From positions 1 to 64,000 of the forward strand of contig JAFGIN010000156.1 in assembly GCA_016929595.1 (NCBI GenBank): a stretch of 64,000 nt of DNA, given 5' to 3'. The translations under genes and the position numbers were made by a program. This DNA comes from Chitinispirillaceae bacterium. Lineage in GTDB: Bacteria > Fibrobacterota > Chitinivibrionia > Chitinivibrionales > Chitinispirillaceae. Numbering within the stretch: the first letter of the stretch is position 1; every line of letters starts with the position of its first letter. Positions 1-16,318 of the stretch are shown here, one piece after another. Under the pieces are notes generated by a model. That model ran no database searches. It was given only the letters and a program-made list of their open reading frames with translations, and was not told the DNA's origin.

Positions 1-1
1 T

Positions 2-25
2 CCTTCCCCCGTTAACGGGGGAAGG
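2..25. repeat. Perfect 24-bp palindrome at the left edge
   Basis: Bases 2-25 form a perfect palindrome: CCTTCCCCCGTT followed by its exact reverse complement. It is followed by GGTGCCGAAGGCGGATGGGG, a G-rich flank of the type that accompanies dispersed extragenic palindromes. It is cut off by the window edge, so the full element may be longer. It lies just past the 3' end of the leftward STAS gene and could fold in that transcript, but there is no T-run to call it a terminator. Confidence 0.6.
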
Positions 26-86
26 TGCCGAAGGCGGATGGGGGAAAATCAGATCTATTCGCGATATACTATGTCGCTATGTATAA

Positions 87-584
87 TCACTGCTTCGCCT
101 TGTCTTCATCATCGATATTTTTAACAATCTCATTAAAAAGTTCACGGTTCTTTTCGTCTATGGTAACTAAGGCAAGATGCGTTTTTTTGACCAGAACGCC
201 AATTTCTTTAGGGGTATAGACTTTACTTGAAGGAACTGCATTCCCGGAGAACGGATGTCCTTTTGTACCTCGCTCTATTTCAAAAATCCGGGTCAGGCCG
301 ACATCATGCAGGTTTTTCAGAATCTCATCTGTCGGGTTTAAAATGATAAAGGCAACAGTATACTGTGAACCCAGGCGCTTAAAATGAGCCAGGACACCAA
401 GACTTGTACTGTCCATATATGAGGTAGCGGAAAGATCGAAATATACTTTTTTCAGTACAACTTCGTTTAAAACACAAGCAAGAAATGTATCAAGGTCAGC
501 ACTCACCTCCCAGGTGATAGCCCCGATAAGTTTCAGGTAACATGAGTCCTCTGTCAGTGAAAATTCAAGCGATCCCTTCAGCAT
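87..584 (-). CDS. STAS-domain protein (anti-sigma-factor antagonist type)
   Basis: A 165-residue protein whose first ~105 residues read as a STAS domain: beta strands (SLEFSLTEDSCYLKLIGAI), then the loop DLSATSYMDSTSLGVL, where SpoIIAA-type proteins carry the phosphorylated serine (here DSTSLG near residue 58). STAS proteins of this kind act in cytoplasmic partner-switching with an anti-sigma factor or serine kinase; the partner is not visible here. The last ~55 residues are a charged helical extension (ends EIVKNIDDEDKAKQ) not part of the STAS fold. ATG at 584 follows an AAAAGG ribosome-binding site by 9 nt. It stands alone, leftward, downstream of the DUF502 gene; whether the two are cotranscribed across the 140-nt gap is unclear. 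Domain call is firm, biological role unknown. Confidence 0.85.
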   Translation of the reverse strand: MLKGSLEFSLTEDSCYLKLIGAITWEVSADLDTFLACVLNEVVLKKVYFDLSATSYMDSTSLGVLAHFKRLGSQYTVAFIILNPTDEILKNLHDVGLTRIFEIERGTKGHPFSGNAVPSSKVYTPKEIGVLVKKTHLALVTIDEKNRELFNEIVKNIDDEDKAKQ

Positions 585-634
585 TCCCTGATACCTTTTA
601 GAATTAAAGTTTTTCAGTACATCACAATATTGTA

Positions 635-650
635 TTTGCCACCAGGCAAA
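635..650. promoter_or_regulatory. Short inverted repeat upstream of the STAS gene
   Basis: TTTGCC ACCA GGCAAA: two perfect 6-nt arms around a 4-nt centre, about 50 bp upstream of the STAS start. It could be an operator or a weak transcript hairpin. There is no T-run and no recognised regulator motif, so function is a guess. Confidence 0.3.
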
Positions 651-724
651 ACCACACTATTACTCTTAATTCAGCAGCATTAGAAAAAAATCACCCTGAA
701 AAACTGGGGTAAAACTCAGACCTC

Positions 725-1414
725 TCAATCCCTTGGATCGATTGCTCCATTCTTCATTATTGATTTTGATAACTTCCATTTTTTCAGTACCTCCGCAAGG
801 TTAACATCAGAGCTGTCGAAATTATTATCTTTTCCACTTGAGACCATACCGGCAGACACAATCGATTTAACCGCCATCTCAGGACTGATATCGAGTGGAA
901 TCACCTTTGATTCCGATGTGTAAACAAGAAACCCTGATGTTGGGTTTGGTGTTGTCGGAACATAAACAGTGATAACATCAGTGCCAATAGCCTTTGAAAT
1001 ATGAGGCAAGTCCCGTGATGTAACAAACCCAAGACACCAGCTCTCCTCTTTGGGGAACTCTACCAGCACTACCTTTCCAAAAACGTTCTTTTTCTGATTA
1101 ACGAGTACATCCATGATCTGTTGGACAGTCAGGAAGACCTTATTCAAAACCGGTACACTCACAATGATTGAATTTCCAAGCTTGATAATTTTCTTTCCGA
1201 TATAATTTTTTGCAACCATCCCGGTAACCAAGGTAATTGTGATTGTACAAAAGAATCCAACACCAAATGGAAGATCTATGCCTGTCAGGCTCGGAAATAC
1301 ATTATCAATCCAGACAATGAAGTTGTATATCAGGAAAATGGAAAGAATCACCGGTATAAGAGCAAATGCTCCGGCAACAAAATAGGATCTGAAATTTTTC
1401 ATTAATTTTTGCAC
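725..1414 (-). CDS. DUF502 family membrane protein
   Basis: A 229-residue protein with two N-terminal membrane segments (about 10-32, FVAGAFALIPVILSIFLIYN; and about 50-70, VGFFCTITITLVTGMVA) followed by the characteristic DUF502 core (PVLNKVFLTVQQIMD, then the VPTTPNPTSGFLVY loop near residues 150-165). The PNPTSG motif is the hallmark of the family. No biochemical role is established for DUF502 proteins in bacteria. GTG at 1414 is preceded by TGAGG at 8-nt spacing; an in-frame ATG at 1402 is the alternative start. The C-terminal ~40 residues (after EMAVKSIVSAGM) are a polar tail. Upstream is a 585-bp gap before the divergent lepA. Confidence 0.9.
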   Translation of the reverse strand: MQKLMKNFRSYFVAGAFALIPVILSIFLIYNFIVWIDNVFPSLTGIDLPFGVGFFCTITITLVTGMVAKNYIGKKIIKLGNSIIVSVPVLNKVFLTVQQIMDVLVNQKKNVFGKVVLVEFPKEESWCLGFVTSRDLPHISKAIGTDVITVYVPTTPNPTSGFLVYTSESKVIPLDISPEMAVKSIVSAGMVSSGKDNNFDSSDVNLAEVLKKWKLSKSIMKNGAIDPRD

Positions 1415-1999
1415 GAAAAAACCTCACAAAAAGCATTTAAAAATTCTATCATACTTTTTTCATTCTAAAAAGGTAATTCAAACGATTTTCAGTTCAAAAA
1501 CCTCTCAAAGTACGATTTCACTCCGGATAATAATATCATTTTTTCAACTCGTCATAACGGCTGCGATCCAAATGTCAATACAGGCAACACTTCAACACTA
1601 AGAAAAAAGTACTGTTTTAATTATTCTTCCCTTAATCGGTACTATAGTGAGCACTACACATCTCTGATTACGTATATACTGAAAACTATTCACGTAAGTT
1701 TTGCAATGCAAAAATACATCAGTTTATAATTTTGTGTACTATAATATTTGACGTTTCTTAAAAGAATTCTGGTCACTTCCATGAGATTCATTTTCTGCAT
1801 TATTGATTACGATTGCAATGGTTAATCCGTAGTATGAGAATGTATTCTATTCTAATTTCATACCAGTATAAACATGAAATTCTCAAAGCTCTATATCTAT
1901 TCAATGAACACTCACTCTGAGCATGAAGTATATTCTACGGCTATATTTTTTTAACCACTCGGCTGATTTGATCAACTTTTTAGTAATTCAGGAACACAA
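1415..1999. other. Divergent intergenic region, DUF502 / lepA
   Basis: 585 bp of AT-rich sequence between divergent genes. All frames are broken by frequent stops. I see no RNA gene, strong hairpin or sigma-54 site. It must carry promoters for both directions, but no -35/-10 pair stands out enough to mark. Confidence 0.4.
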
Positions 2000-3796
2000 G
2001 TGACAACAGAACTTATCCGAAATTTTTGCATAATCGCACACATCGACCATGGCAAATCAACTCTGGCTGATCGGTTTCTTGAGCTGACCAGTACCGTTTC
2101 CAGAGAAAAAATGCAGGCCCAGGTACTGGATGACATGGATCTTGAACGCGAACGTGGTATCACAATCAAATCACATCCTATCCGAATGATGTACAAGGCG
2201 GAAGATGGAAAACAGTATCAGTTCAATCTTATCGATACACCGGGACATGTGGACTTTTCCTATGAAGTATCACGCTCACTCGCAGCATGTGAAGGGGCGA
2301 TACTGGTAGTTGATGCATCACAGGGCATTGAAGCACAAACACTTACCAATATTTACCTTGCACTGGAAAACGATCTTGCGATTATTCCGGTAATTAATAA
2401 GATTGACCTCCCGTCAGCACGTCCCGATGAGATCAGAAAACAGGTTGCAGATCTTCTTGGAATCGATAACGAGACAATTCTGGCATGCAGTGCAAAAACC
2501 GGACTTGGTATCGCCCCTATTCTTGAACGGGTAATCGAGGAAATTCCTCCACCCTCCAGCAAGGCTGATGAACCACTCAAAGCACTGGTATTCGATTCCA
2601 AATTTGATGCATTCAGAGGTGCCGTAGCATATATTCGGGTTTTCGGAGGCACATTCAAACGAGGGGATTCTATACGATTCCTGTCAACCGGAAGAGAATA
2701 TGAAGCCGACGAGATCGGATTTTTCAGAATGGGACGGGTGCCAGTAGAAACTCTTAATTCTGGAGAGGTCGGATATGTTATCGCCAACATCAGGACTGTT
2801 TCAGACATCAAAACTGGTGACACAATAACTACGCGGCTCAAAGGTACCAATGAAGCCGTTGAAGGATACCGGGAGATTAAACCTATGGTATTCAGCGGAA
2901 TTTATCCTGTCGATAAAGTTGACTACGAAGATCTACGCTCATCACTTGAAAAATTAAAGCTCAATGATTCTTCGATCAGTTATGAACCCGAAACATCAGC
3001 AGCGCTCGGGTTTGGATTCAGAGCCGGCTTCCTTGGACTGTTGCACATGGAAATTGTACAGGAGCGCCTCTTCAGAGAATTTAATGTAAATATCATTACA
3101 ACTGTACCCAACGTCAAATATAGAGCTCTTTTGAAATCGGGAGAAGAGGTATACATCGAAAGTCCCGCTAAAATGCCATCGCCTCAGGAATGTGATGCCA
3201 TTTATGAGCCTATCGCAAAACTTCAGATAATCACGCCAACAGAATATGTCGGCTCTCTCATGAAGCTCTGTGATGAAAAGCGGGGTAAGATGGGGACTAT
3301 GGAGTACCTTGACACCACACGTGTGTGCCTCCATTACAGAATCCCGATGTCCGAAATGATCATCGATTTCTTTGATAAAATGAAAAGCCTTTCCAAAGGC
3401 TATGCATCAATGGATTATGACTTTGACGGATACGAAAGCGACACACTGATTAAACTCGATATTTTAATAAACGGCTCACCAGTAGATGCTTTTTCATCAA
3501 TAGTTCACAAGGATAACGCCTTTTACTATGGTCAGTCGATTACATCAAAACTCAAAGAACTAATTCCCCGTCAGCAATTTGAAGTAGCTATACAGGCTGC
3601 CATTGGAAATAAAGTTATTGCACGTACAACCGTTAAACCTTACCGTAAAGATGTTACCTCCAAGTGCTACGGCGGAGATATCTCTCGTAAACGAAAACTG
3701 CTCGAAAAACAGAAAGAGGGTAAAAAGCGGATGAAACAGGTGGGAAATGTGGAGATCCCGCAGGAAGCGTTTCTTGCGGTCTTGAACAGGGAGTAG
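2000..3796 (+). CDS. lepA: Elongation factor 4 (LepA) GTPase
   Basis: A 598-residue translational GTPase matching LepA/EF4 in length and order. The G1 motif [13 protein letters not shown] lies at ~14-26, the switch-I region [15 protein letters not shown] at ~47-60, G3 DTPGHVDF at ~80, and G4 NKIDLP at ~134. Domains II and III follow, then the EF-G domain V-like segment ([20 protein letters not shown]). The LepA-specific C-terminal domain ends with the basic stretch [19 protein letters not shown]. LepA acts on the ribosome, aiding 30S assembly and elongation under stress. GTG at 2000 has AGGAA six bases upstream. The gene heads an apparent operon with the signal-peptidase-like gene two bases after its stop; a lepA-lepB neighbourhood is classical in many bacteria. 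Confidence 0.97.
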
Positions 3797-3798
3797 TA

Positions 3799-4740
3799 AT
3801 GGTGTCAAATGCTCATTTAAACAGTGCTATTGACATAAAAACTCTTTTTGTCAGGTTAATCATCAGGATAGTCATAATTGCCGGGATCGCCTTACTTGTC
3901 AAATATTGTTTTATTGATTCAACAGTCATCCAAAGTGACCAGATGGTTCCATCGATCTATTCCGGCGACCGTACCCTTGTTTTTAAAACATTTTCACTAC
4001 CGCTGTTCAGATCAATTTTCCACCCCGGGTTGCATCAGCCGGTGCTTTTCAAACAGCCCATAAATCCAGGGCTGCGTAACTGTCTTCGAATCGCAGGTAT
4101 TGCGGGAGACACAATTTCAATAGACAGCGCTTTATTCAGAAACAAAAATTCCGGATACAAAACAGACCAGACACAAGTCACTTTTGATCTTATTCCCGGA
4201 GAGTTTTCACCCAGAGATTTTTTGGAAGAGTATTCAATTCCTTCAATTGGCGATACCCTGGTATTGGACAGCCTTAAAATCCGGGATTACTTTTTTGCAT
4301 TTTCGCTGATCAGGCAGGAAACAGGAAAAGAACCGATTCAATTTTCGGCAAATGTGATGATAGACGATTCTACTTGCAACGATTATATTATAAAAGGGTT
4401 TTCTCTTTATTCGGGAGCTTTGGGAGAATTACCCGATAATCTTCGAAACTACTGGTTTTTCTGGATTCAGCTTGAGAATTATCTCAAAAACACTCGTCCT
4501 GATAACCACATTTCGATAAAGTTCACCACAATAAAAAAGGGTACTGTATTACACAGATATATCGTTAAAGAACGTCATTATTTCCTTCTCGCTGATAACT
4601 GGCTCTCAGGATACGATTCCAGGTATTTCGGACTTGTGAATGAGAAACATATTATTGGCAGACCTTTTATGATCTGGTGGTCAACGGCAAAAGCGAAGGG
4701 AATCAAATCAATTTCGAGAATTGGCAGAATGGTTTTATGA
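3799..4740 (+). CDS. Signal peptidase I homologue lacking the catalytic Ser and Lys
   Basis: A 313-residue S26-type protein with one N-terminal membrane anchor (~20-40, [17 protein letters not shown]). The family boxes can be aligned. Box B, normally PSxSMxPT, reads [13 protein letters not shown], so the nucleophilic Ser before Met is Gln. Box D, normally KRVxGxPGD, reads LRIAGIAGD, so the general-base Lys is Leu. Box E is well kept: [14 protein letters not shown]. About 150 residues are inserted between boxes D and E, as in many Bacteroidetes-like LepB proteins. By these residues it should not cleave signal peptides. The ORF is intact, has AGGGAG 5 nt before ATG 3799, follows lepA by 2 nt and overlaps trpB by 4 nt (ATGA), so it looks maintained. 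It is perhaps a periplasmic-face binding or regulatory protein. Family call firm; inactivity inferred. Confidence 0.85.
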
Positions 4741-5939
4741 ATGAGAGCAAAATGAAAAAAGGATATTTCGGCAAATTTGGTGGCATGTTTGCACCAGAGA
4801 CATTGATGCCAGCCCTTGAGGAAGTGGAACGCGCTTTTAAGGCATTTACAAATGACACTTCATGCATGCAGCACTACGCATCACTTTTGAAAGAGTACAA
4901 TGGTCGTCCAACACCACTGTATTTTGCTTCCCGACTGACAGAGTCACTTGGTGGAGCAAAAATTTATCTCAAAAGAGAAGATCTTAACCACACCGGTGCC
5001 CACAAAATTACCAATGCACTCGGGCAGGCTCTTCTGGCCAGATACATGGGAAAAACACGGCTCATTGCAGAAACCGGTGCAGGACAGCATGGAGTTGCAA
5101 CTGCGACCGCAGCAGCATTACTGGGAATGGAATGCAAAATTTATATGGGAACCGTTGATATTGCCAGACAACGTTCCAATGTTTTCCGGATGAACCTTCT
5201 TGGCGCAAAAGTTGTCCCTGTTGACAGTGGAGGCAAAACACTTAAGGATGCTGTCAATGAAGCAATGAGAGACTGGACAAAAACAGTCAGAAACACTCAT
5301 TACGTTTTTGGTTCTGCGCTTGGCCCCTACCCTTTCCCGACCATGGTTCGGACATTCCAGTCGATCATTGGAAAAGAAACCCGACAGCAGATTCTTGAAA
5401 AGACAGGGTCACTCCCGCATGAAGTTATTGCATGTGTCGGAGGAGGATCTAACGCTATCGGTATTTTCAGTGCATTTATTGAAGATAAAGATGTAATACT
5501 CACCGGGGTAGAAGCTGGTGGTCACGGGATTGATGGAAAAAAGCATGCGGCACGTTTGTGCAAATCGAAACATTCTCGTCCAGGAATTCTCCATGGTTCC
5601 TATTCGTATGTTCTTCAGGACGAAAACGGTCAGATCGCCGACACTCACTCGATCTCTGCAGGTCTTGATTATAGTGGAATCGGCCCTGAACACTCCTACC
5701 TCAGTGGCATAAAGCGGGTAAACTATACTTACGCAACTGATGAAGAAGCGATCAGGGGATTTACAGCGTTATGTGAACTCGAGGGAATAATCCCGGCGCT
5801 GGAGTCTTCACACGCTGTTGCTTATACACTCAAACGTTCACCACAACTTGCAAAAAACCAGACTATCATTATAAATCTCAGCGGTCGTGGAGACAAGGAT
5901 ATTTTCTCTGTCGCTGATTACCTTGGAAAATCAATATGA
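4737..5939 (+). CDS. trpB: Tryptophan synthase beta chain
   Basis: A ~400-residue PLP enzyme that condenses indole with L-serine to tryptophan. All landmarks are visible: N-terminal [18 protein letters not shown] lysine in [28 protein letters not shown], phosphate-binding GGGSNAIG, and the TrpB1-type [14 protein letters not shown] stretch. I place the start at ATG 4737, which overlaps the upstream stop as ATGA; ATG 4752 is the alternative and gives the usual N-terminus. A far-upstream in-frame start at 4677 would overlap the previous gene by 64 nt and is unlikely. It is coupled to trpA by another ATGA overlap. No other trp genes are in the window, so the pathway is split over the genome. Confidence 0.97.
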
Positions 5940-6742
5940 ACAGATATCAAAAAACGTTTCAACTACTCAAAGAAAGAAATGAAGCTGCGTTTATTCCATT
6001 CACGGTGGCAGGAGATCCTGATTTAGACAGAAGTGAAGCAATCCTGAAGGCCTACATCGATGGTGGAGCCGACATTCTTGAAATAGGGTATCCGTTTTCA
6101 GATCCGGTTGCCGATGGTCCGGTAAATCAGCGAGCCGCAATCCGGGCAATTAATGCAGGCCTCAAACCAGATACATTCTTTTCCCTGATATCAAAGGTCC
6201 GTAATTATTCAGAAATACCATTTGGTTTACTTCTTTACGCAAACATAATAGAACATGTTGGAGTCGAAATATTCTGCCGTAAAGCCGCAGATGCAGGAAT
6301 TGACAGCCTCTTAGTTGCGGATCTTCCGCCAGAAGAATCGGACACACTTGCAAAAGCTATGAAAGACACAGGCCTTGGAAGAGTGTTTATCATCTCAGAA
6401 TTGACTCCACCAGAAAGAACATCAATAATATGTAAACACGTTGATTCGTTTATCTATGTCGTTAGCAGACTGGGAGCGACGGGAACTAATAGCGCACCGA
6501 GCGATTCTATCAAAGAAACCATAACGAAAATAAAATCGGTTTCAAACAAACCTTGTGCAGTGGGATTTGGAATATCTACGCCGGAGCATGTACGGCAAAT
6601 CACAGCGACCGGCGCAGAAGGTGTTATTGTAGGCAGTGCACTTGTTTCTCTAATCGAACAGAGTAAAGATAACACCGATCTTATCAATAAAATGAAACAG
6701 ACGGTCAAAGCTTATAAGGACGGTACCAGAAAAACGCAGTAA
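5936..6742 (+). CDS. trpA: Tryptophan synthase alpha chain
   Basis: A 268-residue TIM-barrel subunit that releases indole from indole-3-glycerol phosphate and channels it to TrpB. The catalytic pair is present: Glu in [15 protein letters not shown] and Asp in the ADGP end of the same motif (~residues 48-62). The phosphate-binding ends VGFGIST and [12 protein letters not shown] are also intact. Length is standard. ATG 5936 overlaps the trpB stop (ATGA). The 77-nt gap after it holds only a weak imperfect hairpin (CTACCCAC/GTGAGTAG) without a T-run, so readthrough into tyrA is possible. Confidence 0.97.
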
Positions 6743-6819
6743 ATCTCTTTTCAATGTAATTAAAAATGAACTACCCACACCGTGAGTAGTACTCTACCTG
6801 ATAACGGCAGCATTAACGA

Positions 6820-7728
6820 ATGATCAATAACCCCTCATGTATCGGCATCTTTAGCACAGGCCTACTTGGAGCGTCAATTGGCCTTTCTCTTAAAGCATCT
6901 GAATTTCCGGGCACAATTGTCGGTTTCTCCTCGGCTGAAGGTATTTCAGTTGCTCTCAATTCAGGGGCTATTGACATCGGATTCCGTTATGAGCAACTGG
7001 AAGAGCAAATTGATAAAATAGACATTCTGTTTCTTTGTTCACCAATTAAGACAATCATCAATGCAATCATCAGGCTTTCTGATTGCAAACTCAAAGATGG
7101 GTGTATCATCACTGATGTCGGCAGTACAAAAAGAGAGATTCTCTCGGCATCTCTGGAATTACCCCCACATGTCCGTTTTATTGGCGCCCATCCAATGGCC
7201 GGATCAGAAAAAAGCGGCCCATCAGCAGCCACCTCTGATCTCTTTCAAAATGCACTTTACGCTCTTACACCCCGCAATAATGTCTCAGAACAAGAGATTA
7301 ATAAATTTGCAGAATTTCTTCGGAACAACCTGGGGTGCCGTACGCTTATCATAGATGCACAGAGCCATGATTTTATTGTAGCAGCAACCAGTCACATTCC
7401 ACACCTTCTTTCTGTGATGTTAGTTAATCATGTCAAATCAGTAGAAAACCGTTTTCCCGAAACACTCAGTTTAACTGCCGGTGGTTTCAGAGATATGACC
7501 AGAATCGCAACTTCACCATATACAATGTGGAAAGATATTTTCGAAACCAATCATGACAATATCGAATCTCAGATTGATGACTGCATTAACATACTCAAAG
7601 AAATCAAGCTGCGGCTCAACAACAATACCATTGGAGATCTTTTTGAAACAGCAAGAGATACAAAATCAAGGATAGCTGCAGATAATGGTGGATTTCCATC
7701 GAATGAAAGGAACCGATTCAATTGCTAA
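6820..7728 (+). CDS. tyrA: Prephenate dehydrogenase
   Basis: A 302-residue NAD(P)-dependent dehydrogenase making 4-hydroxyphenylpyruvate from prephenate for tyrosine synthesis. The N-terminal nucleotide motif reads GIFSTGLLGASIGLSLK (first Gly of GxGxxG replaced by Ser-Thr, then LLGxSIG as in TyrA). The catalytic His region FIGAHPMAGSEKSGP is at ~120-135, and the helical dimerisation domain with HIPHLLSVMLVNH follows. There is no fused chorismate mutase or ACT domain. No clear Shine-Dalgarno precedes ATG 6820. Its 3' end overlaps the next gene, the EPSP-synthase-like gene, an arrangement (tyrA-aroA) common in aromatic amino-acid operons. Confidence 0.93.
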   Translation: MINNPSCIGIFSTGLLGASIGLSLKASEFPGTIVGFSSAEGISVALNSGAIDIGFRYEQLEEQIDKIDILFLCSPIKTIINAIIRLSDCKLKDGCIITDVGSTKREILSASLELPPHVRFIGAHPMAGSEKSGPSAATSDLFQNALYALTPRNNVSEQEINKFAEFLRNNLGCRTLIIDAQSHDFIVAATSHIPHLLSVMLVNHVKSVENRFPETLSLTAGGFRDMTRIATSPYTMWKDIFETNHDNIESQIDDCINILKEIKLRLNNNTIGDLFETARDTKSRIAADNGGFPSNERNRFNC

Positions 7729-9068
7729 CTGTAAAACCGGCCAAATCAATGAAAGGTACCTGTCAGCTCCCACCAAGCCCGGATCTCTTTGTTCTTGCAG
7801 TGATTGCATCTCTTCTGTCGCGCAGACCGATCACACTCTCTCCTTTTACAGATACACCACTTGTACATTTCTGGATTGATACCTTCAAGGGCTGTGCACA
7901 GTTTGAGCAGTCTGAAAATTGCTGGAGTGTTACCCCATTGCTGCAGGATCCGGTACAATTTATCAATATCACCACACCGTCAATTCCCTATCGGGAACTT
8001 GTTGTGTTCTCTCTGCTTGGCATGGGCAAAACAATCGCATTTTCTTCAATAGCAAATAAACGACTTCAATCCTGGAAAACCAGGGCCAGGCGCTACGGCA
8101 TCGAGATCAGCATTGATGATTACAGCGGCAGCACCGGTATCTCGATTGTCGACCCGCCTGGACTTTTCGCTATCAATAAGCTGCATGATGAAAATGATAT
8201 CACAATGCTTCTGGGCCTGGCATCGGGCTTACATGGAACACTCTCGTTTTTGATAAATACTCCATTCTCAAGTCCATTTCGAACAATCGCATCGCTTTTT
8301 GGATTTGACATATCAGTAAAAAGTACCGTTGAAAAGGAAACTGATCCTCTTGCACGACGGATAAAAATGCTTCAGAAAAAACCTGCGACATCTTCGGGTA
8401 TGCAGTACTCTTTTACCGCAGATTTTGCACAAAAAGAACATGATGGATCAGTCATTCCCGTAACATTACCGGGAGACGAGGTGCTCGGTGCAATTTTGTT
8501 AACGGCCCGGTGCCTCATCCAGAAAGGATCATTTGTACTTGGTAATTTACCGCTGGAAACATGGAGTGCACCGGTTCTCAATTTTATTCGTAAAATGGGT
8601 ACAAAAATTACAGCTCAGGAGACCGGAAGGACATCATTCGGGTCAACCGGCCTTCTGACTATGCAGAAAATCGAACTTATGGGCAGAAAACTTGAATGTA
8701 AACCATTAATCACTTTTAAACCTTATTTGCCATCCCTAACGATTCTTGCAGCATCCGCAAAGGGGCAGTCTGTTTTCAGAGGCCTTGAAGACCTTCGAAA
8801 TGATGAACCTGACGGGATAGATCTCATCGAAAGTTGTATCCGTCGTTTAGGTGCCCGCCATGGAGAGATGCCTGATGGGATTGTGATGGAGGGTGGTAAG
8901 GATTTCGATGGGTTTGATTTTGAATACGCATATCATGCTGAATTGGCTGCCGCATTTGCCATCGCAGGACTTCACTGTATCGGAACCACGACAATCAACG
9001 ACGAGTTTATCTTGCACCGCTGGCCCGATTTTGAAACCATTCTCTCAACATTATTTGAACTCAGGTGA
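7722..9068 (+). CDS. EPSP synthase (AroA) fold protein with eroded active site
   Basis: A 448-residue protein alignable along its whole length with 3-phosphoshikimate 1-carboxyvinyltransferase, but nearly every substrate-binding motif has changed. The P-G-S-K-S-x-x-x-R segment reads LPPSPDLFVLAV (Lys and Arg gone). GNSGTxxR reads DENDITMLLG. The GDxSLxxRPM loop reads INTPFSSPFR. The LRxKESDR motif reads LRNDEPDGI (only Glu and Asp remain). DHR near the end reads YHA, and the K-S-x-P motif reads HRWPDF. Structural signatures such as LPGDEVLGAILL and LPSLTILAASAKG remain. It is therefore probably not an EPSP synthase; a retained non-catalytic or repurposed role is possible. TTG 7722 has AAAGG upstream and overlaps tyrA by 7 nt; ATG 7749 is an alternative. 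nadK follows directly. Confidence 0.8.
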   Translation: MLTVKPAKSMKGTCQLPPSPDLFVLAVIASLLSRRPITLSPFTDTPLVHFWIDTFKGCAQFEQSENCWSVTPLLQDPVQFINITTPSIPYRELVVFSLLGMGKTIAFSSIANKRLQSWKTRARRYGIEISIDDYSGSTGISIVDPPGLFAINKLHDENDITMLLGLASGLHGTLSFLINTPFSSPFRTIASLFGFDISVKSTVEKETDPLARRIKMLQKKPATSSGMQYSFTADFAQKEHDGSVIPVTLPGDEVLGAILLTARCLIQKGSFVLGNLPLETWSAPVLNFIRKMGTKITAQETGRTSFGSTGLLTMQKIELMGRKLECKPLITFKPYLPSLTILAASAKGQSVFRGLEDLRNDEPDGIDLIESCIRRLGARHGEMPDGIVMEGGKDFDGFDFEYAYHAELAAAFAIAGLHCIGTTTINDEFILHRWPDFETILSTLFELR

Positions 9069-9070
9069 TT

Positions 9071-9961
9071 ATGAACCCTGTTACGTCATTCGGTATTGTC
9101 GCTTATAAAGAAACCCCGGAGATTAAAAATGTCCTTGAAAGGATACATGCCTGGTCTTTAGAAACAAGTGCTAAAGTACACTTTCATCCTTTTACAACAT
9201 CACAACTCCCGCCACGTGTCGCTCCGTGTAAATCAGAATGTGATTTTCTTGAATTATCAGAAGCGCTTGTTTCAATTGGCGGTGATGGCACATTTTTATC
9301 TGTTGCACACATGTGCCGTTTTGTTCAGAAACCTGTTGTTGGTATCAATCTTGGTGGATTAGGGTATCTTACCGACATTGGTCCAGAGGACATCGAAATA
9401 AGCCTGACGCAAATTAGTAAAGGTAATTACCGCACAATCAGCAGAATGGTGCTTGAGGCGTCAATTTACAGAGAGGGTAATAAAATCGCTTCATACCAGG
9501 CACTCAATGATATATTTATCAACAGAATTAACACAACCAGAATGACGGCAATCTCAGCCTGGTATGGTAAGGACTTTATAACCGATTTTTTTGCAGATGG
9601 TATAATAGTGGCAACACCAAACGGTTCAACGGCATACTCTCTGGCCGCAGGCGGTCCTATTGTTGAACCTAATGTCAAAGCACTTCTACTTACTCCCATC
9701 TGCCCGCATTCTCTCACTGAACGCCCGATAATTTTACCAGCTGATAATTTTGTTAAACTTGTCGTAAGTGAAACAAACTCTGAGTGTCTCTTGAGCGCAG
9801 ATGGTCTGGAATCCATTCAACTCCAATACAATGATGAGGTTATTGTCAGTTATGGTGGTGCTCAAACCAACCTTATCCAACTGGCTGAACGGTCATATTT
9901 TGCTCTCCTGAGAAAAAAACTTGACTGGGGAAAAGCATATAAAAAGCGATTGTCACGATGA
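9071..9961 (+). CDS. nadK: NAD kinase
   Basis: A ~296-residue ATP-NAD kinase that makes NADP. Diagnostic motifs are SIGGDGTFLSVAH (catalytic GGDGT, ~residue 70), the NE/D-like region LNDIFINR, and the glycine-rich DGIIVATPNGSTAYSLAAGGPIV loop (~175-195), written here in two overlapping halves: DGIIVATPNGSTAYS and SLAAGGPIV. The C-terminus keeps LSADGLESI. ATG 9071 has CAGG five bases upstream; an in-frame GTG at 9065 overlaps the previous stop (GTGA) and is the alternative start. The 3' end overlaps recN as ATGA. The nadK-recN pairing is widely conserved. Confidence 0.96.
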   Translation: MNPVTSFGIVAYKETPEIKNVLERIHAWSLETSAKVHFHPFTTSQLPPRVAPCKSECDFLELSEALVSIGGDGTFLSVAHMCRFVQKPVVGINLGGLGYLTDIGPEDIEISLTQISKGNYRTISRMVLEASIYREGNKIASYQALNDIFINRINTTRMTAISAWYGKDFITDFFADGIIVATPNGSTAYSLAAGGPIVEPNVKALLLTPICPHSLTERPIILPADNFVKLVVSETNSECLLSADGLESIQLQYNDEVIVSYGGAQTNLIQLAERSYFALLRKKLDWGKAYKKRLSR

Positions 9962-11634
9962 TACAGGAACTTCACATCAAAAATCTTGCACTGATCGATG
10001 AACTCAGTCTCGAGCTTGAGGATGGGCTTACCATTTTCACTGGTGAAACAGGGGCTGGTAAATCGATTTTACTTGGAGCGATCGGCCTTTTACTGGGAGA
10101 AAGGGCTTCAGCAGATATGATTCGCAGCGGATTTGATGAAGCTACCGTATCTGCAACATTCTGTATTAAAAATATATCATCTGCAATAATTGACGAACTT
10201 AACGAACTGGCGATTGTACCTGAAGAAAACCAGCTTATTATAAGAAGAAAAATTACACGAAGCGATAGAAATAAAATTTACATCAATCAGATCCCGATTC
10301 CATTGGGTACTCTGAAAAAACTTGGCGATCGTCTCATAGATCTTCATGGCCAACACGAACATCAATCTCTTCTCAATGAAGAAACACACATTTCGGTAAT
10401 TGACGCGCTTCCCGGAGTAAGTAATCACAAAGCTGCATATGATGAAGCATTCCGTGAACTGGAAAAAGCACAATCAGAACTTGAATCACATTGTAATAAA
10501 ACCAAAAAGCTCCTTGAACGTAAAGATTTTCTCGAGTATCAACTCAAAGAGATACACTCAATCGATCCTCATCCGGGAGAGGAGGAAAAGCTTGAAACCG
10601 AATTGTCGTTATTGTCATCAGGCATCGAACGTTCAACCTGTACATCAGAGATTATGGCCCTGCTCAGTGGCAACAGCGAATCGATTCTCAAATTAACTGC
10701 CCGGCTGAGGAAAAAATTAGATACGCTCTCAAAATATGACTCAAGTGTCGAAGCCTGGTGTGAGGAGCTCGACAATGCAAATTCGGTGTTGAACGAACTG
10801 GACTCTTTTTGCAGTTCGTATCTTACCAGAATAGAAGAAAAAAGCGATCCTTCAAGAATCGAATATATCAATTCCCGTCTTTCTAAAATTCAACGTCTTA
10901 AAAAGAAATATTCAGCCACGCTGGAGCAACTGGTTTCTTTGAAGGTCAATCTTGAAAAGGATCTCGAAGATATCTCCAATTCGCAAAGTGATGCGTCTCA
11001 GCTGCAGCATGCTGTTGATTCCTGCAATAAAAGATGTATGGAGCTGGGTAAAATATTAAGTGAGGAACGTCGCAAAGCAGCCACTGATTTTGACCTGAAA
11101 ATCTCCGCGCTGATCTCAAGGCTTGGAATTACTGATGGCAGACTCATTACCGTATTTAATCCCCTGGCTCAACCATCCTCTCAAGGTCTGGAAACGATTC
11201 GCTTTTTTTCACAGACAAATCCAGGCGAACCTCATCTTCCACTAAGTAAATCAGCATCCGGTGGTGAAATATCCAGAATTATGCTTGCCATAAAAACAGT
11301 TCTTGCCGAAAATGATAATATTCCTGTCCTGATTTTCGATGAAATTGATACCGGTATTGGTGGTTTGATCGCGTCAGAGGTTGGAAGTGCTCTTCAGAAT
11401 TTAAGTAAATCACATCAGGTTCTGTGCATCTCTCATCTTCATCAGGTAGCCTCAATGGGTGATCATCATTTTAAAGTTTACAAAACAAAACAGACCGATC
11501 GCACGGTAACTCTGGTCGAAAAACTGGATCGCGACGGAAGAGTCGCGGAGCTTGCCAGAATGCTTGGCGGGGTTTCAGATATTACCATTAAACATGCTGA
11601 ATCACTTCTTGATAATAGTTCCAGTCCTTTGTAA
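9958..11634 (+). CDS. recN: DNA repair protein RecN (SMC-like ATPase)
   Basis: A 558-residue SMC-family protein. The N-terminal half-site has Walker A TGETGAGKSILLGAI (~29-43) and the RecN-typical LLGERASADMIRSG. A central coiled coil spans ~155-380. The C-terminal half-site has the ABC signature LSKSASGGEISRIMLAIK, Walker B VLIFDEIDTGIGG and the SHLHQVASMGDHHF H-loop. It acts in double-strand break repair with RecA. Last gene of the tyrA-nadK-recN run; ATG 9958 overlaps the nadK stop. No LexA box was sought within the operon. The following 700 bp contain no intact gene. Confidence 0.96.
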   Translation: MIQELHIKNLALIDELSLELEDGLTIFTGETGAGKSILLGAIGLLLGERASADMIRSGFDEATVSATFCIKNISSAIIDELNELAIVPEENQLIIRRKITRSDRNKIYINQIPIPLGTLKKLGDRLIDLHGQHEHQSLLNEETHISVIDALPGVSNHKAAYDEAFRELEKAQSELESHCNKTKKLLERKDFLEYQLKEIHSIDPHPGEEEKLETELSLLSSGIERSTCTSEIMALLSGNSESILKLTARLRKKLDTLSKYDSSVEAWCEELDNANSVLNELDSFCSSYLTRIEEKSDPSRIEYINSRLSKIQRLKKKYSATLEQLVSLKVNLEKDLEDISNSQSDASQLQHAVDSCNKRCMELGKILSEERRKAATDFDLKISALISRLGITDGRLITVFNPLAQPSSQGLETIRFFSQTNPGEPHLPLSKSASGGEISRIMLAIKTVLAENDNIPVLIFDEIDTGIGGLIASEVGSALQNLSKSHQVLCISHLHQVASMGDHHFKVYKTKQTDRTVTLVEKLDRDGRVAELARMLGGVSDITIKHAESLLDNSSSPL

Positions 11635-11704
11635 CTTCGAAATTACAAGATGACCAATGGGATTTTCACCCTCTTTCGTTTAAACTTCAGAGGGCAGGCG
11701 AGTA

Positions 11705-11750
11705 GCCGGTTTGGTAGAGTGTCTGCGAGCATAAAGCTGATTCAACCGGC
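11705..11750. repeat. Inverted repeat downstream of recN
   Basis: GCCGGTT (11705-11711) pairs exactly with AACCGGC (11744-11750) around a 32-nt loop. It lies 70 bp after recN with no T-run, so it is more likely part of a structured or mobile remnant than a classical terminator. Confidence 0.4.
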
Positions 11751-11774
11751 ACTGTTGGGAGATTCGCGGGTGTA

Positions 11775-11830
11775 AGTTTGCCGTTTTATAACCACTGTCC
11801 TTCGAAGTGGCCTATTACAAACGGTAAACT
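11775..11830. repeat. Long imperfect hairpin downstream of recN
   Basis: AGTTTGCCGTTT (11775-11786) pairs with AAACGGTAAACT (11819-11830) with one mismatch, and inner arms CCACT (11792-11796) and AGTGG (11806-11810) extend the stem to a loop of about 9 nt. It could form a stable hairpin RNA, a degraded MITE-like element or an attachment-type site; it lacks the core bases of an integron attC site. Confidence 0.45.
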
Positions 11831-11879
11831 AAAACTTGCTAAAATTGAAAATGCAGACTTACCTGCTTATTCTTTATCA

Positions 11880-12310
11880 ACGTGATTTTGATTTTAAATG
11901 GTTGGACGGATGATCGCGGGACGGGGAACAATCCGGTTGCGAATTTGGATTCTCGTTCCGTTTCCGATGGTAATTGTGATTGTAACGTTGATGGTAATAA
12001 CGCCGATACCCCATATATTCCCGGTATTCCCATCGGTAGAGACAAGGCATGCCTTGTCTCTACCGATGAAACGAACGCCGACGAAACCACCGACGATATT
12101 GATTACGACGACGTCGATAGCGCCACCATCGTATTCGGGGAAAACCACGCGGATCCCACAGACCCCACCAATCCCGCACCAAAACAACCACCCCTGACAA
12201 TACCCCAGAAACGTTTCCGCAACCAGGGGAAAAATACCGTTTCATCAATGGTTGACGGGTACGTATCTGCCGTTACGCACCATGCGCACCGCGCAGGATA
12301 AGGCACGTGC
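11880..12310. repeat. GC-richer low-complexity repeat region without a convincing gene
   Basis: About 430 bp whose base use differs from the neighbouring genes: strings such as GATGGTAATTGTGATTGTAA on the left and GACGACGTCGATAGCGCC on the right, roughly mirrored about the 38-bp palindrome in its middle. Open frames run through on both strands, but the translations are low-complexity D/N/T- or I/V/G-rich with no recognisable domain, so I treat them as chance. A GGCACGTGCC palindrome sits at 12302-12311. A GTAGTGC direct repeat (12327-12333, 12348-12354) with 21-bp periodicity lies just beyond its right end. Confidence 0.45.
12031..12068. repeat. Perfect 38-bp palindrome
   Basis: CATCGGTAGAGACAAGGC (12031-12048), a central AT, and the exact reverse complement to 12068. 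Because it is perfectly symmetrical both strands read the same peptide (GRDKACLVST). Such perfect dispersed palindromes are typical of REP/MITE-like elements; only this one copy is in the window. Confidence 0.75.
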
Positions 12311-12354
12311 CACACCCTTTTTTAAAGTAGTGCGTGACCATTTTGATGTAGTGC

Positions 12355-12573
12355 ATTAAAAATAAAAAAGATAGAATTCCCAGCCTGAAAAATGTAATCG
12401 TCCTACAAAATAAAGGACTTGCCTCTATTGATAGCACCCCGGGAATTATCGCTGAAGATTCCTCAATTACAATCAATACCGATTCAGCTCTTGGAGGTGC
12501 AATCGCTTTTCTGCAGAAGGATTCCACATTGAAATTGCGGCTGCTGGCGGGTGGAAAAATTGACTTATATTAG
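12355..12573 (+). pseudogene. Remnant of a secreted (beta-helix-like) protein
   Basis: A 72-codon open stretch with no start codon, beginning right after a TAG and ending at TAG 12571. It reads NVIVLQNKGLASIDSTPGII, then SITINTDSALGGAIAFLQ and a Leu-rich end, a Ser/Thr/Gly/Asn-rich alternating pattern as in extracellular beta-helix or adhesin proteins. With no start and no neighbours in frame it is best seen as a broken piece of a larger gene, possibly the same one as the BNR fragment 6 bp downstream (different frame). Confidence 0.45.
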
Positions 12574-12578
12574 AATCT

Positions 12579-13163
12579 TTGCAATATGTATACTTGTTTT
12601 TCAAACTGTTTTACGGACAATGGAAACAAATCGACGGGTTTTGCGGAGGGTATTTCGTCGATATCGGATTTGGAGAAAACGAGACTGTCTTTGCAGCAAC
12701 AACCTCTTCTATTTACAAATCTACCGATAATGGCCTGAACTGGTCCATTGTTGATACGGTAACTGGAATTACTGCACTGGCGGCAGATGCAGATGGTGAT
12801 ACATTTTATGCAGGTGTCAGTACATAGGTTCATATTTCTACTGATGGCGGAGTTCACTGGGAAAAATGTGCACGCTTTACAGAAACGGCACACGGACAGA
12901 TTACCGGTATTTTCATAAAAGAAAATAAGATAATGGTATCTACAGTATTGGGAAATTTTGAGTCCACCGACAGAGGTGCCACCTGGAATCCGGGTACATT
13001 TCCCGAAAGAGCCAACTGCTTCACACAAGTTAATGATACGATTTTTATCTGTGTCAATAACAGCGTCTCACATTACACAGACAACGGCATGCACTGGGAA
13101 AAGTTCAGGGACTTTTGCTGGGGCTTAATTTCTTTGTCGAGGGGGGGTTTTGTTCTTTTTTGA
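12579..13163 (+). pseudogene. BNR-repeat (sialidase/Vps10-like) protein remnant with in-frame TAG
   Basis: One reading frame of 195 codons interrupted only by TAG at 12825-12827. Both sides carry the same repeat type: YKSTDNGLNWSIVD before the stop, then HISTDGGVHWEKC, FESTDRGATWNPG and HYTDNGMHWEKF after it. These are BNR/Asp-box repeats (S/T-x-D-x-G-x-x-W) found in secreted beta-propellers. The frame opens at a TTG without signal peptide and its 3' end runs into a G/T-rich tract where similarity stops, so both ends look lost. A degraded gene is most likely; amber readthrough or a sequence error at 12825 would be the alternative. Confidence 0.7.
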
Positions 13164-13250
13164 AGGGATTTTGTATTTTTTGCAAAACGCTTTTTTGTTT
13201 GTTGGGGCTGTTTTTTTATTTTTGAGGGGGCTTTTTTGTTTATTTAGGGT
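13139..13250. repeat. G/T-rich low-complexity tract
   Basis: By hand count, of bases 13141-13250 about 92 of 110 are G or T on the plus strand, with six C. GCTTTTTTGTTT occurs twice (13189-13200, 13230-13241), giving a 41-bp partial direct repeat. The complementary strand encodes a Lys-rich nonsense ORF. The sharp strand asymmetry abuts the broken BNR gene and is unlike any other part of the window. Confidence 0.6.
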
Positions 13251-13334
13251 CTGTAATGCATACTTAAAAGAAAAAACAAACACCCCCTGTTGCGCCAAAA
13301 TGAATCCTCTTTTACTATAAAGATGGGCCAACTC

Positions 13335-13523
13335 TTAAGCTTGTGTAACCAGTTCCGGTGCAGATTCCTCTGTGATGCTGGTTGATGATTTTTTCTTCTG
13401 AAGAAAATCGATATAATAGAGTTCTTCGATTTGTGGTTCAGAATTACAGCTACTTACAAATTTTATTTTATGCGTTGTTTTAAACAAAAAAGAAAATCGC
13501 CGCCCTGAGAAAAATATGTTCAT
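13335..13523 (-). CDS. Possible small protein coupled to treY
   Basis: A 62-codon ORF whose ATG shares a base with the treY stop (TAATG), so translational coupling is possible. The sequence (starts MNIFFSGRRFSFLF, ends EESAPELVTQA) has no domain I recognise and no clear signal peptide. It may be chance; the coupled start is the only evidence. Confidence 0.25.
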   Translation of the reverse strand: MNIFFSGRRFSFLFKTTHKIKFVSSCNSEPQIEELYYIDFLQKKKSSTSITEESAPELVTQA

Positions 13524-16318
13524 TAGCTATCTGCAATTAGTAGAGCACAGGGAAACAAGTCAAGGATCTGTGCAACAGGTAACATTTTTTGATTTTCAAT
13601 CCTTTTTTCAGTGATACAATCCCACCACGACGATGTCAATATTTGAGGCATTTCGATACAGGTATCCAGCCACAAATTGTCTTTCAAAGGAAATGTTGTA
13701 AATGATTTCACCGATTGTAACTTTCGTGATGCAACAATAATTACCGTTTTCCCGTTTACAATTCTTGCGAATGAAATAATTGAATCACTGTACGTGCCCT
13801 TTGCAGTTAATGGAACATATTCACCATCAATAAAAAGTTCTCTGTTCTCTTTCCTGAATTCCAGAACACGTCTGATCAGAAACAGTTTTGATATGCCAGA
13901 CGAGAGGTCTTCCAGAAGCCAGTTAAAAAAACTGCGATTTATTATTAGAGACTCAGTAAATACATCTCTGTTGACAGCGCCTCTTTTTTTAAAATCTATT
14001 GTTTTTCGATTGTCTGGATCTACCATTGTGAGATCCCAGAATTCACACCCCTGATAAAAATCAGGTATTCCAGGTGAGGTCATTTTCAACAAACATTGAG
14101 ATAAGGAGTAAAATGTTCCAAATTCTGCAACAGTTTTTACAAAAGGTATAAATGATTCAAAAAATGCAACATTGAATTTTTCATCGGTTGCAGAATCAAT
14201 AAAAGACAGTATACCCTGCTCGTATTCCTTATCATATTCGATCCAGGCAGTATGAATTTTCGCTTCCCTGACAGCTTTGAGCATATATTCCCGCATCCGC
14301 TTTTTGTAAACAGTATAATCATCAGAATTGATCGGCCAGGTACCTGTCAGAGTCTGATAAAAAAAGTATTCGTCGTTACTATCAGGAATTTCAACACCAT
14401 ATTTCTGTTTTTTGAATTTTTTATTTATTTCTCTCCACTTCGTTGTAGACTGTTCCCAGAGCACGGGTATTTCGGAAAGGTAATTGATCCTCATTCTAAC
14501 ATCTTCACCCCGTTTGCTATCGTGAGTTGATGTTGTATTCATCGAGAGAGGAGACTGATCATGGCGTTTTTTACAAAAGCTATGAAATTTTTCAACAGTA
14601 GCTCCAAATGTCAGAGGATCCCCCCCCACTTCATTTAAAGATATTAACCTGTTGAAATCGTAGTATACAGTATCTTCAATCCCTTTAGCGCTCAGAGAAC
14701 CGGTAAACTGCTGAAACCTCATGACAACTTCAGTCCATTGTATTTTCTGCTCCTCAGATAACCCTGTATCGTATCGTAAAAACAGGAACCGTTCGATAAA
14801 ATCAAATTCTCTGCTCAAACCCGGCTCATCAGTTCGGGCCTTAACAATTGCTTTTTGAAGATTTTCACGGTCTTCATCACTGAAATTGGAATAATTGATA
14901 TATGAGCGATAGACAGGAAAATGTACCATCAGTTCAACGAGAGCAGTCCGAAGACCATAGAGCGTAATATCACTTCCCCAACGGTCGTGAGTACTGATAG
15001 TTTTTATCAGTGAAGCAAGATTATCGATATCACCAGCCATATTCTTTTTAAGTATCAGACGTTTTGCGTCCTTCACTGTTTTTTCAAAAGAGTTATAGTT
15101 ACCGCTGAATTTCTGATAAATTTGTGTAAACCTGGATTCATTTTCATTGCAACAGAAAAGTTGATTAACAATATTGCAGAAATCATATCCGGTCGTTCCC
15201 TGCACTGGCCAGCAATGTGGAACTGTTTCATTTGCCCCCAGAATTTTTTCAACCACAATATAGGCATCGGGTGCATTCTGTCTCAACCTCTGAAGATAAT
15301 TGAATGGATCATATAATCCATCAATATGATCTACCCGCAAGCCGGTGATCAATCCATCATTGTAAAGTTTAAATGCCAGTTCATGTACAATTTTAAACAC
15401 CTCCGGATCTTCAACCCGGACAGAAATTAGATCGTTTATAATGAAAAATCTCCGGTAATTTAACTCCTCATTGGCCACTTTCCAGTATGCCAATTTAAAA
15501 TTCTGTTCATTATGAATACTGTCCAGAAGTACAAACGACCTGGAATCACCTTTTTCACCATTATATTCCTTGAGAATGCTGTCAATATAGGAACTGATCA
15601 GAGCATTACTGCTATACAACTCCCACAGCATCTCTTTTGCAAAAGAGATTTCATCAGATCGTCCATCGGCTTTGCTGTCGGCAGGAAGATTCTTTATGAC
15701 ATATAAAACTCCGAGAAATTTAATTATTCCTGCACTCTCACGATCTGTAAGGTCAAGAAGTGTTTCAAGCCTGTGTCCAAGAACCGAAACGTATGACTCT
15801 ATTTTTAACGGGAAAAGGTAATTGTAATAAGCTAATGCAAAGCCATCTTTCTGGTAAGTTAATTGTATTTCGCGATTTTCAAGGCACGATGCATAAATAT
15901 TGCCCAGTATAGGCATCAGTAACTTTCCCTGAAGTGAAACATAATGATGATTCCAGTCGATGTCAAATTGTCTTATTTTAACATTATCAGGACCGTTTTC
16001 AAGTAATTCATTCAAAGATTTATTTTCTTTGTCAAAAGCCATATGATTGGGCACAATATCCTGAATCCATCCCATACCGTTACTCTTTACCTTTGCAACA
16101 AGTCGTTCAAACCCCTCCACCCCGCCGATCTCCTCATTAATTGTGCAGTAATCAACGATATCATATCCATGGGTGCTTCCAGAGCGTGCTTTAAATATGG
16201 GTGAAGAATAAATATGAGATATTCCAATCTCATGTAAATAATCGACAATTTCTTCAGCGTCTTCAAAGGTGAACTGGTTGTTAAACTGCAAACGATATGA
16301 AGCGTCTGGTATCTGCAT
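13523..16318 (-). CDS. treY: Maltooligosyltrehalose synthase
   Basis: A 931-residue GH13 enzyme that converts the reducing-end alpha-1,4 linkage of maltodextrins to the alpha,alpha-1,1 linkage of trehalose. The N-terminus IPDASYRLQFNNQFTFEDA and HGYDIVDY are TreY-typical. The GH13 nucleophile motif is LRVDHIDGLYDP (~residue 320), the acid Glu is in IVVEKILGANE, and TSTHDSKRGEDVRMR is the TreY-specific conserved region IV. Length fits the upper family range. It normally works with TreZ, but no treZ, glgX or other glycogen gene is in the window. ATG 16318 begins the canonical MQIPxxTYRLQ form. It is divergent from the MFS gene, 226 bp apart. Trehalose here would serve as osmoprotectant or reserve. 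Confidence 0.95.
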   Translation of the reverse strand: MQIPDASYRLQFNNQFTFEDAEEIVDYLHEIGISHIYSSPIFKARSGSTHGYDIVDYCTINEEIGGVEGFERLVAKVKSNGMGWIQDIVPNHMAFDKENKSLNELLENGPDNVKIRQFDIDWNHHYVSLQGKLLMPILGNIYASCLENREIQLTYQKDGFALAYYNYLFPLKIESYVSVLGHRLETLLDLTDRESAGIIKFLGVLYVIKNLPADSKADGRSDEISFAKEMLWELYSSNALISSYIDSILKEYNGEKGDSRSFVLLDSIHNEQNFKLAYWKVANEELNYRRFFIINDLISVRVEDPEVFKIVHELAFKLYNDGLITGLRVDHIDGLYDPFNYLQRLRQNAPDAYIVVEKILGANETVPHCWPVQGTTGYDFCNIVNQLFCCNENESRFTQIYQKFSGNYNSFEKTVKDAKRLILKKNMAGDIDNLASLIKTISTHDRWGSDITLYGLRTALVELMVHFPVYRSYINYSNFSDEDRENLQKAIVKARTDEPGLSREFDFIERFLFLRYDTGLSEEQKIQWTEVVMRFQQFTGSLSAKGIEDTVYYDFNRLISLNEVGGDPLTFGATVEKFHSFCKKRHDQSPLSMNTTSTHDSKRGEDVRMRINYLSEIPVLWEQSTTKWREINKKFKKQKYGVEIPDSNDEYFFYQTLTGTWPINSDDYTVYKKRMREYMLKAVREAKIHTAWIEYDKEYEQGILSFIDSATDEKFNVAFFESFIPFVKTVAEFGTFYSLSQCLLKMTSPGIPDFYQGCEFWDLTMVDPDNRKTIDFKKRGAVNRDVFTESLIINRSFFNWLLEDLSSGISKLFLIRRVLEFRKENRELFIDGEYVPLTAKGTYSDSIISFARIVNGKTVIIVASRKLQSVKSFTTFPLKDNLWLDTCIEMPQILTSSWWDCITEKRIENQKMLPVAQILDLFPCALLIADS

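Follow-up and report, generated by a model that had tools for sequence, protein, structure and literature searches.

EPSP synthase (AroA) is the shikimate-pathway enzyme that is blocked by glyphosate, and for that reason it is among the most studied enzymes. The window analyzed here is a stretch of 64,000 nucleotides from a Chitinispirillaceae bacterium (GenBank assembly GCA_016929595.1, contig JAFGIN010000156.1), and it carries an AroA-like gene between tyrA and nadK (Table 1). The locus raises the question of what an AroA might do for the cell once the residues that bind its substrates are gone. An earlier note, made from the sequence alone, had proposed that nearly all of these residues are replaced in a protein that keeps the length and core of the EPSP synthase fold, and that the protein is either a repurposed AroA paralogue or a regulatory subunit linked to tyrA.

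Table 1. Features of the locus, with positions in the window; domain limits in the 448-residue protein are presumed by homology with E. coli EPSP synthase.
Feature	Position	Strand	Basis or remark
lepA, upstream edge of the conserved gene string	2000..3796	+	named from sequence
lepB, signal-peptidase-like gene	3799..4740	+	named from sequence
trpB	4677..5939	+	named from sequence
trpA	5936..6742	+	part of the conserved gene string
tyrA, prephenate dehydrogenase, without C-terminal ACT domain	6820..7728	+	most relatives have the domain
Ribosome-binding-like AAAGGAA	7706..7712	+	within the 3' end of tyrA; similar site before most orthologues
Catalytically degenerate class II AroA-like protein	7722..9068	+	448 aa, TTG start; profile scores, predicted fold, site alignment
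N-terminal strands of EPSPS domain I, residues 1-20	7722..7781	+	homology with E. coli EPSPS
EPSPS domain II, residues 21-243, fold kept, weakly conserved	7782..8450	+	absent from some Latescibacterota homologues
Remaining EPSPS domain I, residues 244-448, most conserved part	8451..9065	+	motifs LRxDxPDG, RHGEMPDGIV, FDGFDL, RWPxF
nadK, NAD kinase	9065..9961	+	start ATG 9071 more likely
recN, conserved downstream neighbor	9958..11634	+	named from sequence; relatives matched by phmmer

The gene had also been described as lying in frame overlap between its two neighbors. On the tyrA side this stands, given that the tyrA stop codon (TAA, 7726-7728) lies within a 7 bp overlap of two separate ORFs, which do not form a fused TyrA-AroA polypeptide. 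On the nadK side it probably does not, since an overlap of 4 bp needs nadK to start at the GTG at 9065, and the nadK genes of relatives start at an ATG just past the stop codon, so that ATG 9071 is the more likely start in the window. An Rfam scan of window positions 1-14000 gave no regulatory RNA near the operon. Downstream of recN, at 11839-12301, the peptide RDKACLVSTD occurs in ORFs of both strands that overlap each other, which points to an inverted repeat.

The 448-residue protein scores 46.7 bits with PF00275, above the gathering cut-off of 22.8, over residues 250-439. The aroA model TIGR01356 gives 67.8 bits over residues 203-445 only, below its cut-off of 287.25, and NF011381, the model for the bifunctional TyrA-AroA enzyme and among the top two NCBIfam matches, gives 67.6 bits where its cut-off asks for 902. 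A reading as MurA or another enolpyruvyl transferase was rejected, since the best matches are to class II AroA and the MurA model TIGR01072 gives 11.9 bits (cut-off 392.7). An AlphaFold model built with 24 sequences has a pLDDT of 88.4 and a pTM of 0.89, and its best matches in the PDB are the class II EPSP synthases of CP4 (2gg6) and Coxiella (3slh, TM about 0.76), with TM scores of 0.73-0.76 to the closed enzyme. The PF00275 score and the two-domain fold of the model place the protein in the enolpyruvyl-transferase superfamily, and the full-length fold of the model bears out the claim that length and core are kept.

The substrate site was scored in a MAFFT local-pair alignment that combined 28 degenerate proteins with intact AroAs and the E. 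coli enzyme, at 20 residues taken to form the S3P and PEP site of the latter. Two of these are kept in the window protein (R100 as R91 and E341 as E362), and the other 18 differ, much as the earlier note had read from the motifs. Relative to E. coli AroA, the replacements toward the N-terminus are K22 to P20, S23 to D21, R27 to L25, N94 to T85, G96 to S87 and R124 to K113; those in the middle are S169/S170/Q171 to D156/E157/N158, S197 to F182 and Y200 to P185; and those toward the C-terminus are D313 to P334, N336 to D357, K340 to D361, R344 to G365, H385 to A406, R386 to E407 and K411 to H432, with the alignment less certain in the N-terminal half than in the C-terminal half, where the HMMER alignments are clear. 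No alignment that restores the catalytic Lys/Arg/Asp set was found. Intact AroAs keep 74% (class II) or 88% (class I) of the site residues, compared to 11% for the full-length degenerate proteins of Latescibacterota, 5% for those of other Fibrobacterota families and 8% for the orthologues in the order of the window genome. Identity to E. coli AroA at the remaining columns is 17-41% across groups; for the orthologues in the order it is 17%, which places the loss mainly at the active site. At former substrate positions, the same orthologues have taken on a new conserved identity at D21, P185 and mostly R91, which could make up a new ligand site.

The genome (6.6 Mb in 224 contigs) encodes two further members of the superfamily, a MurA on contig C208 and an AroA on contig C30 (G000 C30:34175-35398). 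The latter scores 365-369 bits with TIGR01356, above the cut-off, and is presumably active, as judged by this family score. The lack of any other aroA, which had been named as evidence against a repurposed paralogue, is thus not what the genome presents. The C30 AroA (L074:1501-2724) has N, E and V at the positions of R100, S197 and K411 of E. coli AroA, which is unusual in its clade. An AroA above the TIGR01356 cut-off is encoded in 155 of the 168 Fibrobacterota genomes.

Orthologues of the window protein occur at 34-53% identity in most genomes of the order and, in a search of the 168 genomes, in nearly all families of Fibrobacterota. A degenerate AroA is found at the tyrA locus of Chitinispirillales and Chitinivibrionales relatives, of Fibrobacter-type genomes (f9) and of families f8 and f10-f14. 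The gene string lepA-lepB-trpB-trpA-(chorismate mutase)-tyrA-degenerate aroA-nadK-recN is common to Fibrobacterota, whole or in part, and the order from tyrA to recN is phylum-wide. The frames are open across the phylum, and invariant motifs persist among orthologues of 34-53% identity. The dN/dS ratios of related pairs are 0.09-0.22, the lower values being approximate given that several pairs have a dS close to or past saturation. In every pair dN is lower in domain I than in domain II, which is likewise under purifying selection, and the mean majority frequency per column is 0.65 in domain I versus 0.46 in domain II. The low dN/dS and the presence of orthologues across the phylum indicate that a function has been retained. 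The features by which a pseudoenzyme is recognized in sequence are present together: the fold is kept, the catalytic residues are lost, selection is purifying and a catalytic paralogue exists. The proposal of a repurposed AroA paralogue is supported by the same evidence.

The degenerate protein did not arise by a recent duplication of the AroA on contig C30. The 28 degenerate proteins all fall into a single clade (support 91/83), which lies next to intact class II AroA, and every intact class I-type AroA of Fibrobacterota and Latescibacterota that was tested falls with that of E. coli (100/99). A topology that places the Fibrobacterota degenerate proteins with the AroAs of their hosts is rejected by the AU test (p 3e-96). 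By its sequence relationships, the window protein is descended from a class II, tyrA-linked AroA. Long branches, psF12_L119 among them, make a single origin of the degenerate clade no more than likely.

The linkage to tyrA extends beyond one phylum. In Fibrobacterota, 113 of the 114 genomes with both genes listed have tyrA immediately upstream of the degenerate gene and on its strand, and in the exception the two are on two contigs. In Latescibacterota tyrA is directly upstream in 44 of 51 genomes, and four of the seven exceptions (G173, G174, G175 and G180) have an unlinked, intact or almost intact AroA. The neighbors common to both phyla are tyrA and trpBA only. A TyrA subunit would be expected wherever tyrA is present and nowhere else, and neither half of this expectation is borne out. 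In seven genomes, spread over three lineages, the degenerate gene persists with no convincing tyrA (g2: G001, G011 and G017; g15: G022 and G039; and G166 and G167); in genome-wide searches of these draft assemblies, PF02153 has no match in the first six and a weak one in G167. The operon of g2 and g15 runs from chorismate mutase to the degenerate aroA to nadK, such that the gene order itself shows the deletion of tyrA. Conversely, family f7 keeps tyrA-nadK-recN and has lost the degenerate gene, so TyrA can work alone. The gene is therefore of use without TyrA and is dispensable in one lineage. The suggestion of a regulatory subunit linked to tyrA remains plausible insofar as adjacency goes, but an obligate TyrA subunit is weakened by these losses, and a pure one is unlikely in view of the seven genomes.

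Some further features of these operons were observed. The loci from which tyrA is gone include L083 (G001), L009, L011, L095 (G039) and L022 (G022), and the genomes concerned gave no prephenate dehydrogenase match. In the window, the TyrA ends in a short tail that holds the downstream ribosome-binding site and replaces the ACT domain of most relatives; the TyrA of a termite-gut-type relative (L094) is short as well. In operons of the order, a chorismate mutase of the eukaryotic (plant and yeast) type lies between trpA and tyrA (L079:4057-4887, L083:5065-5961 and others), and both members that were scanned are above the TIGR01802 cut-off. The window genome has two chorismate mutase copies elsewhere (C113:85016-85753 and C101:40207-40932) and none in this operon. 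A tie between the degenerate protein and this mutase was considered and rejected, since almost the entire order has the mutase, f7 included, and it was not found elsewhere in the phylum, so that its presence does not follow that of the degenerate gene.

Degenerate relatives linked to tyrA were also common in a scan of named Latescibacterota genomes; one relative is labeled Gemmatimonadetes and was placed in the same phylum as the Latescibacterota records. Three states coexist in this phylum: an intact class II AroA unlinked to tyrA, a full-length degenerate protein linked to tyrA, and a tyrA-linked form reduced to domain I. The intact form is found away from tyrA in small genomes (L177, L178 and L179), and L181 and L190 keep most of the motifs. 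The reduced forms are encoded by open frames of 220-264 codons and retain only the N-terminal strand and the C-terminal part of domain I. Given that the EPSP synthase site lies between the two domains, such a remnant cannot hold it. The first three genomes examined (G168, G169 and G170) also encode an intact AroA, and G168 and G169 encode a MurA. Domain I is predicted to fold without domain II: the 214-residue form of L102 is modeled with a pLDDT of 87 and a TM score of 0.80 to 3rmt over its own length, in a prediction from three sequences only. A single clade for the three domain-I-only rows is rejected (p 0.0145), which makes two or more losses of domain II probable in Latescibacterota. A VPGD-like motif marks the beginning of domain II and a second one the return of the chain to domain I, as a comparison with L177 shows, and in L102 (about 5998-6070) and L188 the deletion joins the place of the first to the second. 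Recombination between the two motifs could have caused so clean a loss.

On balance, it is probable that the window protein is a conserved pseudoenzyme, a class II AroA that lost catalysis beside another AroA and that serves the aromatic pathway as a non-catalytic accessory or regulatory protein by way of domain I. A second AroA would have taken over the EPSP synthase reaction, in an order of events that we infer, and the operonic class II copy would then have lost catalysis and been kept for aromatic amino-acid synthesis. It would act by protein contact through domain I, with TyrA as its most likely partner where TyrA is present. Given that some lineages without tyrA keep the gene, at least one further target must exist. 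The absence of catalysis, the contact through domain I and the role in aromatic synthesis are each suggested by sequence comparison. As a more tentative extension, the family may have arisen once, before the split of Fibrobacterota and Latescibacterota, as a protein that controls or scaffolds aromatic synthesis in bacteria generally, with domain I as a stand-alone regulatory module.

A narrower role, as a specific subunit that regulates or stabilizes TyrA, for instance by conveying feedback or by channeling prephenate, is possible but rather doubtful. In its favor are the near-constant adjacency in two phyla, the NF011381 match together with the active TyrA-AroA fusions of gammaproteobacteria (PMC1173090), the window TyrA that lacks the ACT domain of its relatives, and the idea of Song et al. 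(2005, PMC1173090) that a truncated AroF on the TyrA of Pseudomonas syringae might become its regulatory domain. However, the gene outlives tyrA in three lineages and is lost in f7 where tyrA stays, and most relatives' TyrA still has an ACT domain of its own. An enzyme with a new reaction, its interdomain cleft remodeled in the Chitinispirillia lineage to take another substrate, stays among the rival explanations on account of the conserved residues at former substrate positions, and we consider it unlikely. In Fibrobacterota, domain II is kept, folded and under purifying selection. Within the order, D21, P185 and R187 hardly vary and R91 and K113 are common; Cys326, Cys372 and Cys419 are conserved as well. 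Against this, domain II was probably lost at least twice within the same clade, the substituted positions differ between Fibrobacterota families, and the catalytic Lys, Asp and Arg are gone.

The other explanations are less probable still. Service to NadK in NADP supply, rather than to aromatic synthesis, is very unlikely: nadK is directly 3' of the gene in most Fibrobacterota, including f13 and f14 loci without tyrA, but no nadK match lies beside the gene in the Latescibacterota loci read or at L098, and nadK remains in f7 after the loss of the gene. It is highly improbable that the gene is a decaying remnant of an old operonic AroA, kept by chance or for translation of nadK, as the lost active site and the disappearance of the gene from f7 might suggest, given that the phylum-wide open frames, the dN/dS values and the motifs invariant at 34-53% identity largely refute a decaying pseudogene. 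Least credible is a very divergent yet active EPSP synthase. The kept fold and the PF00275 score would agree with one, but the motif loss, with the catalytic Lys, Asp and Arg replaced, and the intact paralogue in the genome make it very improbable, and domain II is absent in relatives.

No description of an EPSP synthase pseudoenzyme or of a conserved non-catalytic EPSP synthase family was found in the searchable literature, and annotation pipelines may label these genes aroA. If the more tentative reading of an ancient regulatory family is true, the domain I module would show how the glyphosate target can pass from enzyme to regulator, a transition undescribed in the papers searched. The intact, full-length degenerate and domain-I-only forms of Latescibacterota make a natural series for the change from enzyme to non-enzyme, in which the regulatory-domain suggestion of Song et al. 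(2005) becomes directly testable.

Compared to the class II EPSP synthases of Coxiella (3tr1/3slh), Bacillus halodurans (3rmt) and CP4 (2gg6), the window protein has a similar full-length fold, with TM scores up to about 0.76, and these enzymes are the closest sequence relatives of its C-terminal half and share its ancestry in the tree; the identity is 14-19%, however, and the substrate-binding and catalytic residues are replaced. The genome's own AroA belongs to the same superfamily, but lies at another locus, exceeds the TIGR01356 cut-off and groups on the class I side with E. coli AroA. The bifunctional TyrA-AroA (TyrA-AroF) enzymes of NF011381/PRK14806 have the same order, with tyrA followed by the AroA-like part, whereas the window genes are separate and the AroA part is catalytically degenerate. 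The string hisHb>tyrA>aroF, where aroF encodes EPSP synthase, has been described as ancestral, and in P. syringae the TyrA-AroF fusion has lost about 200 N-terminal residues of AroF and a stand-alone aroF has been gained (Song et al. 2005, PMC1173090). By this published description, a tyrA-linked AroA lost its function there as well, and a stand-alone aroA was acquired. The P. syringae case is recent, fused and limited to one species, whereas the window family occurs in two phyla under selection, with both domains retained in Fibrobacterota. In short, the AroF remnant of P. syringae seems to have in the window family an ancient parallel of much wider distribution.
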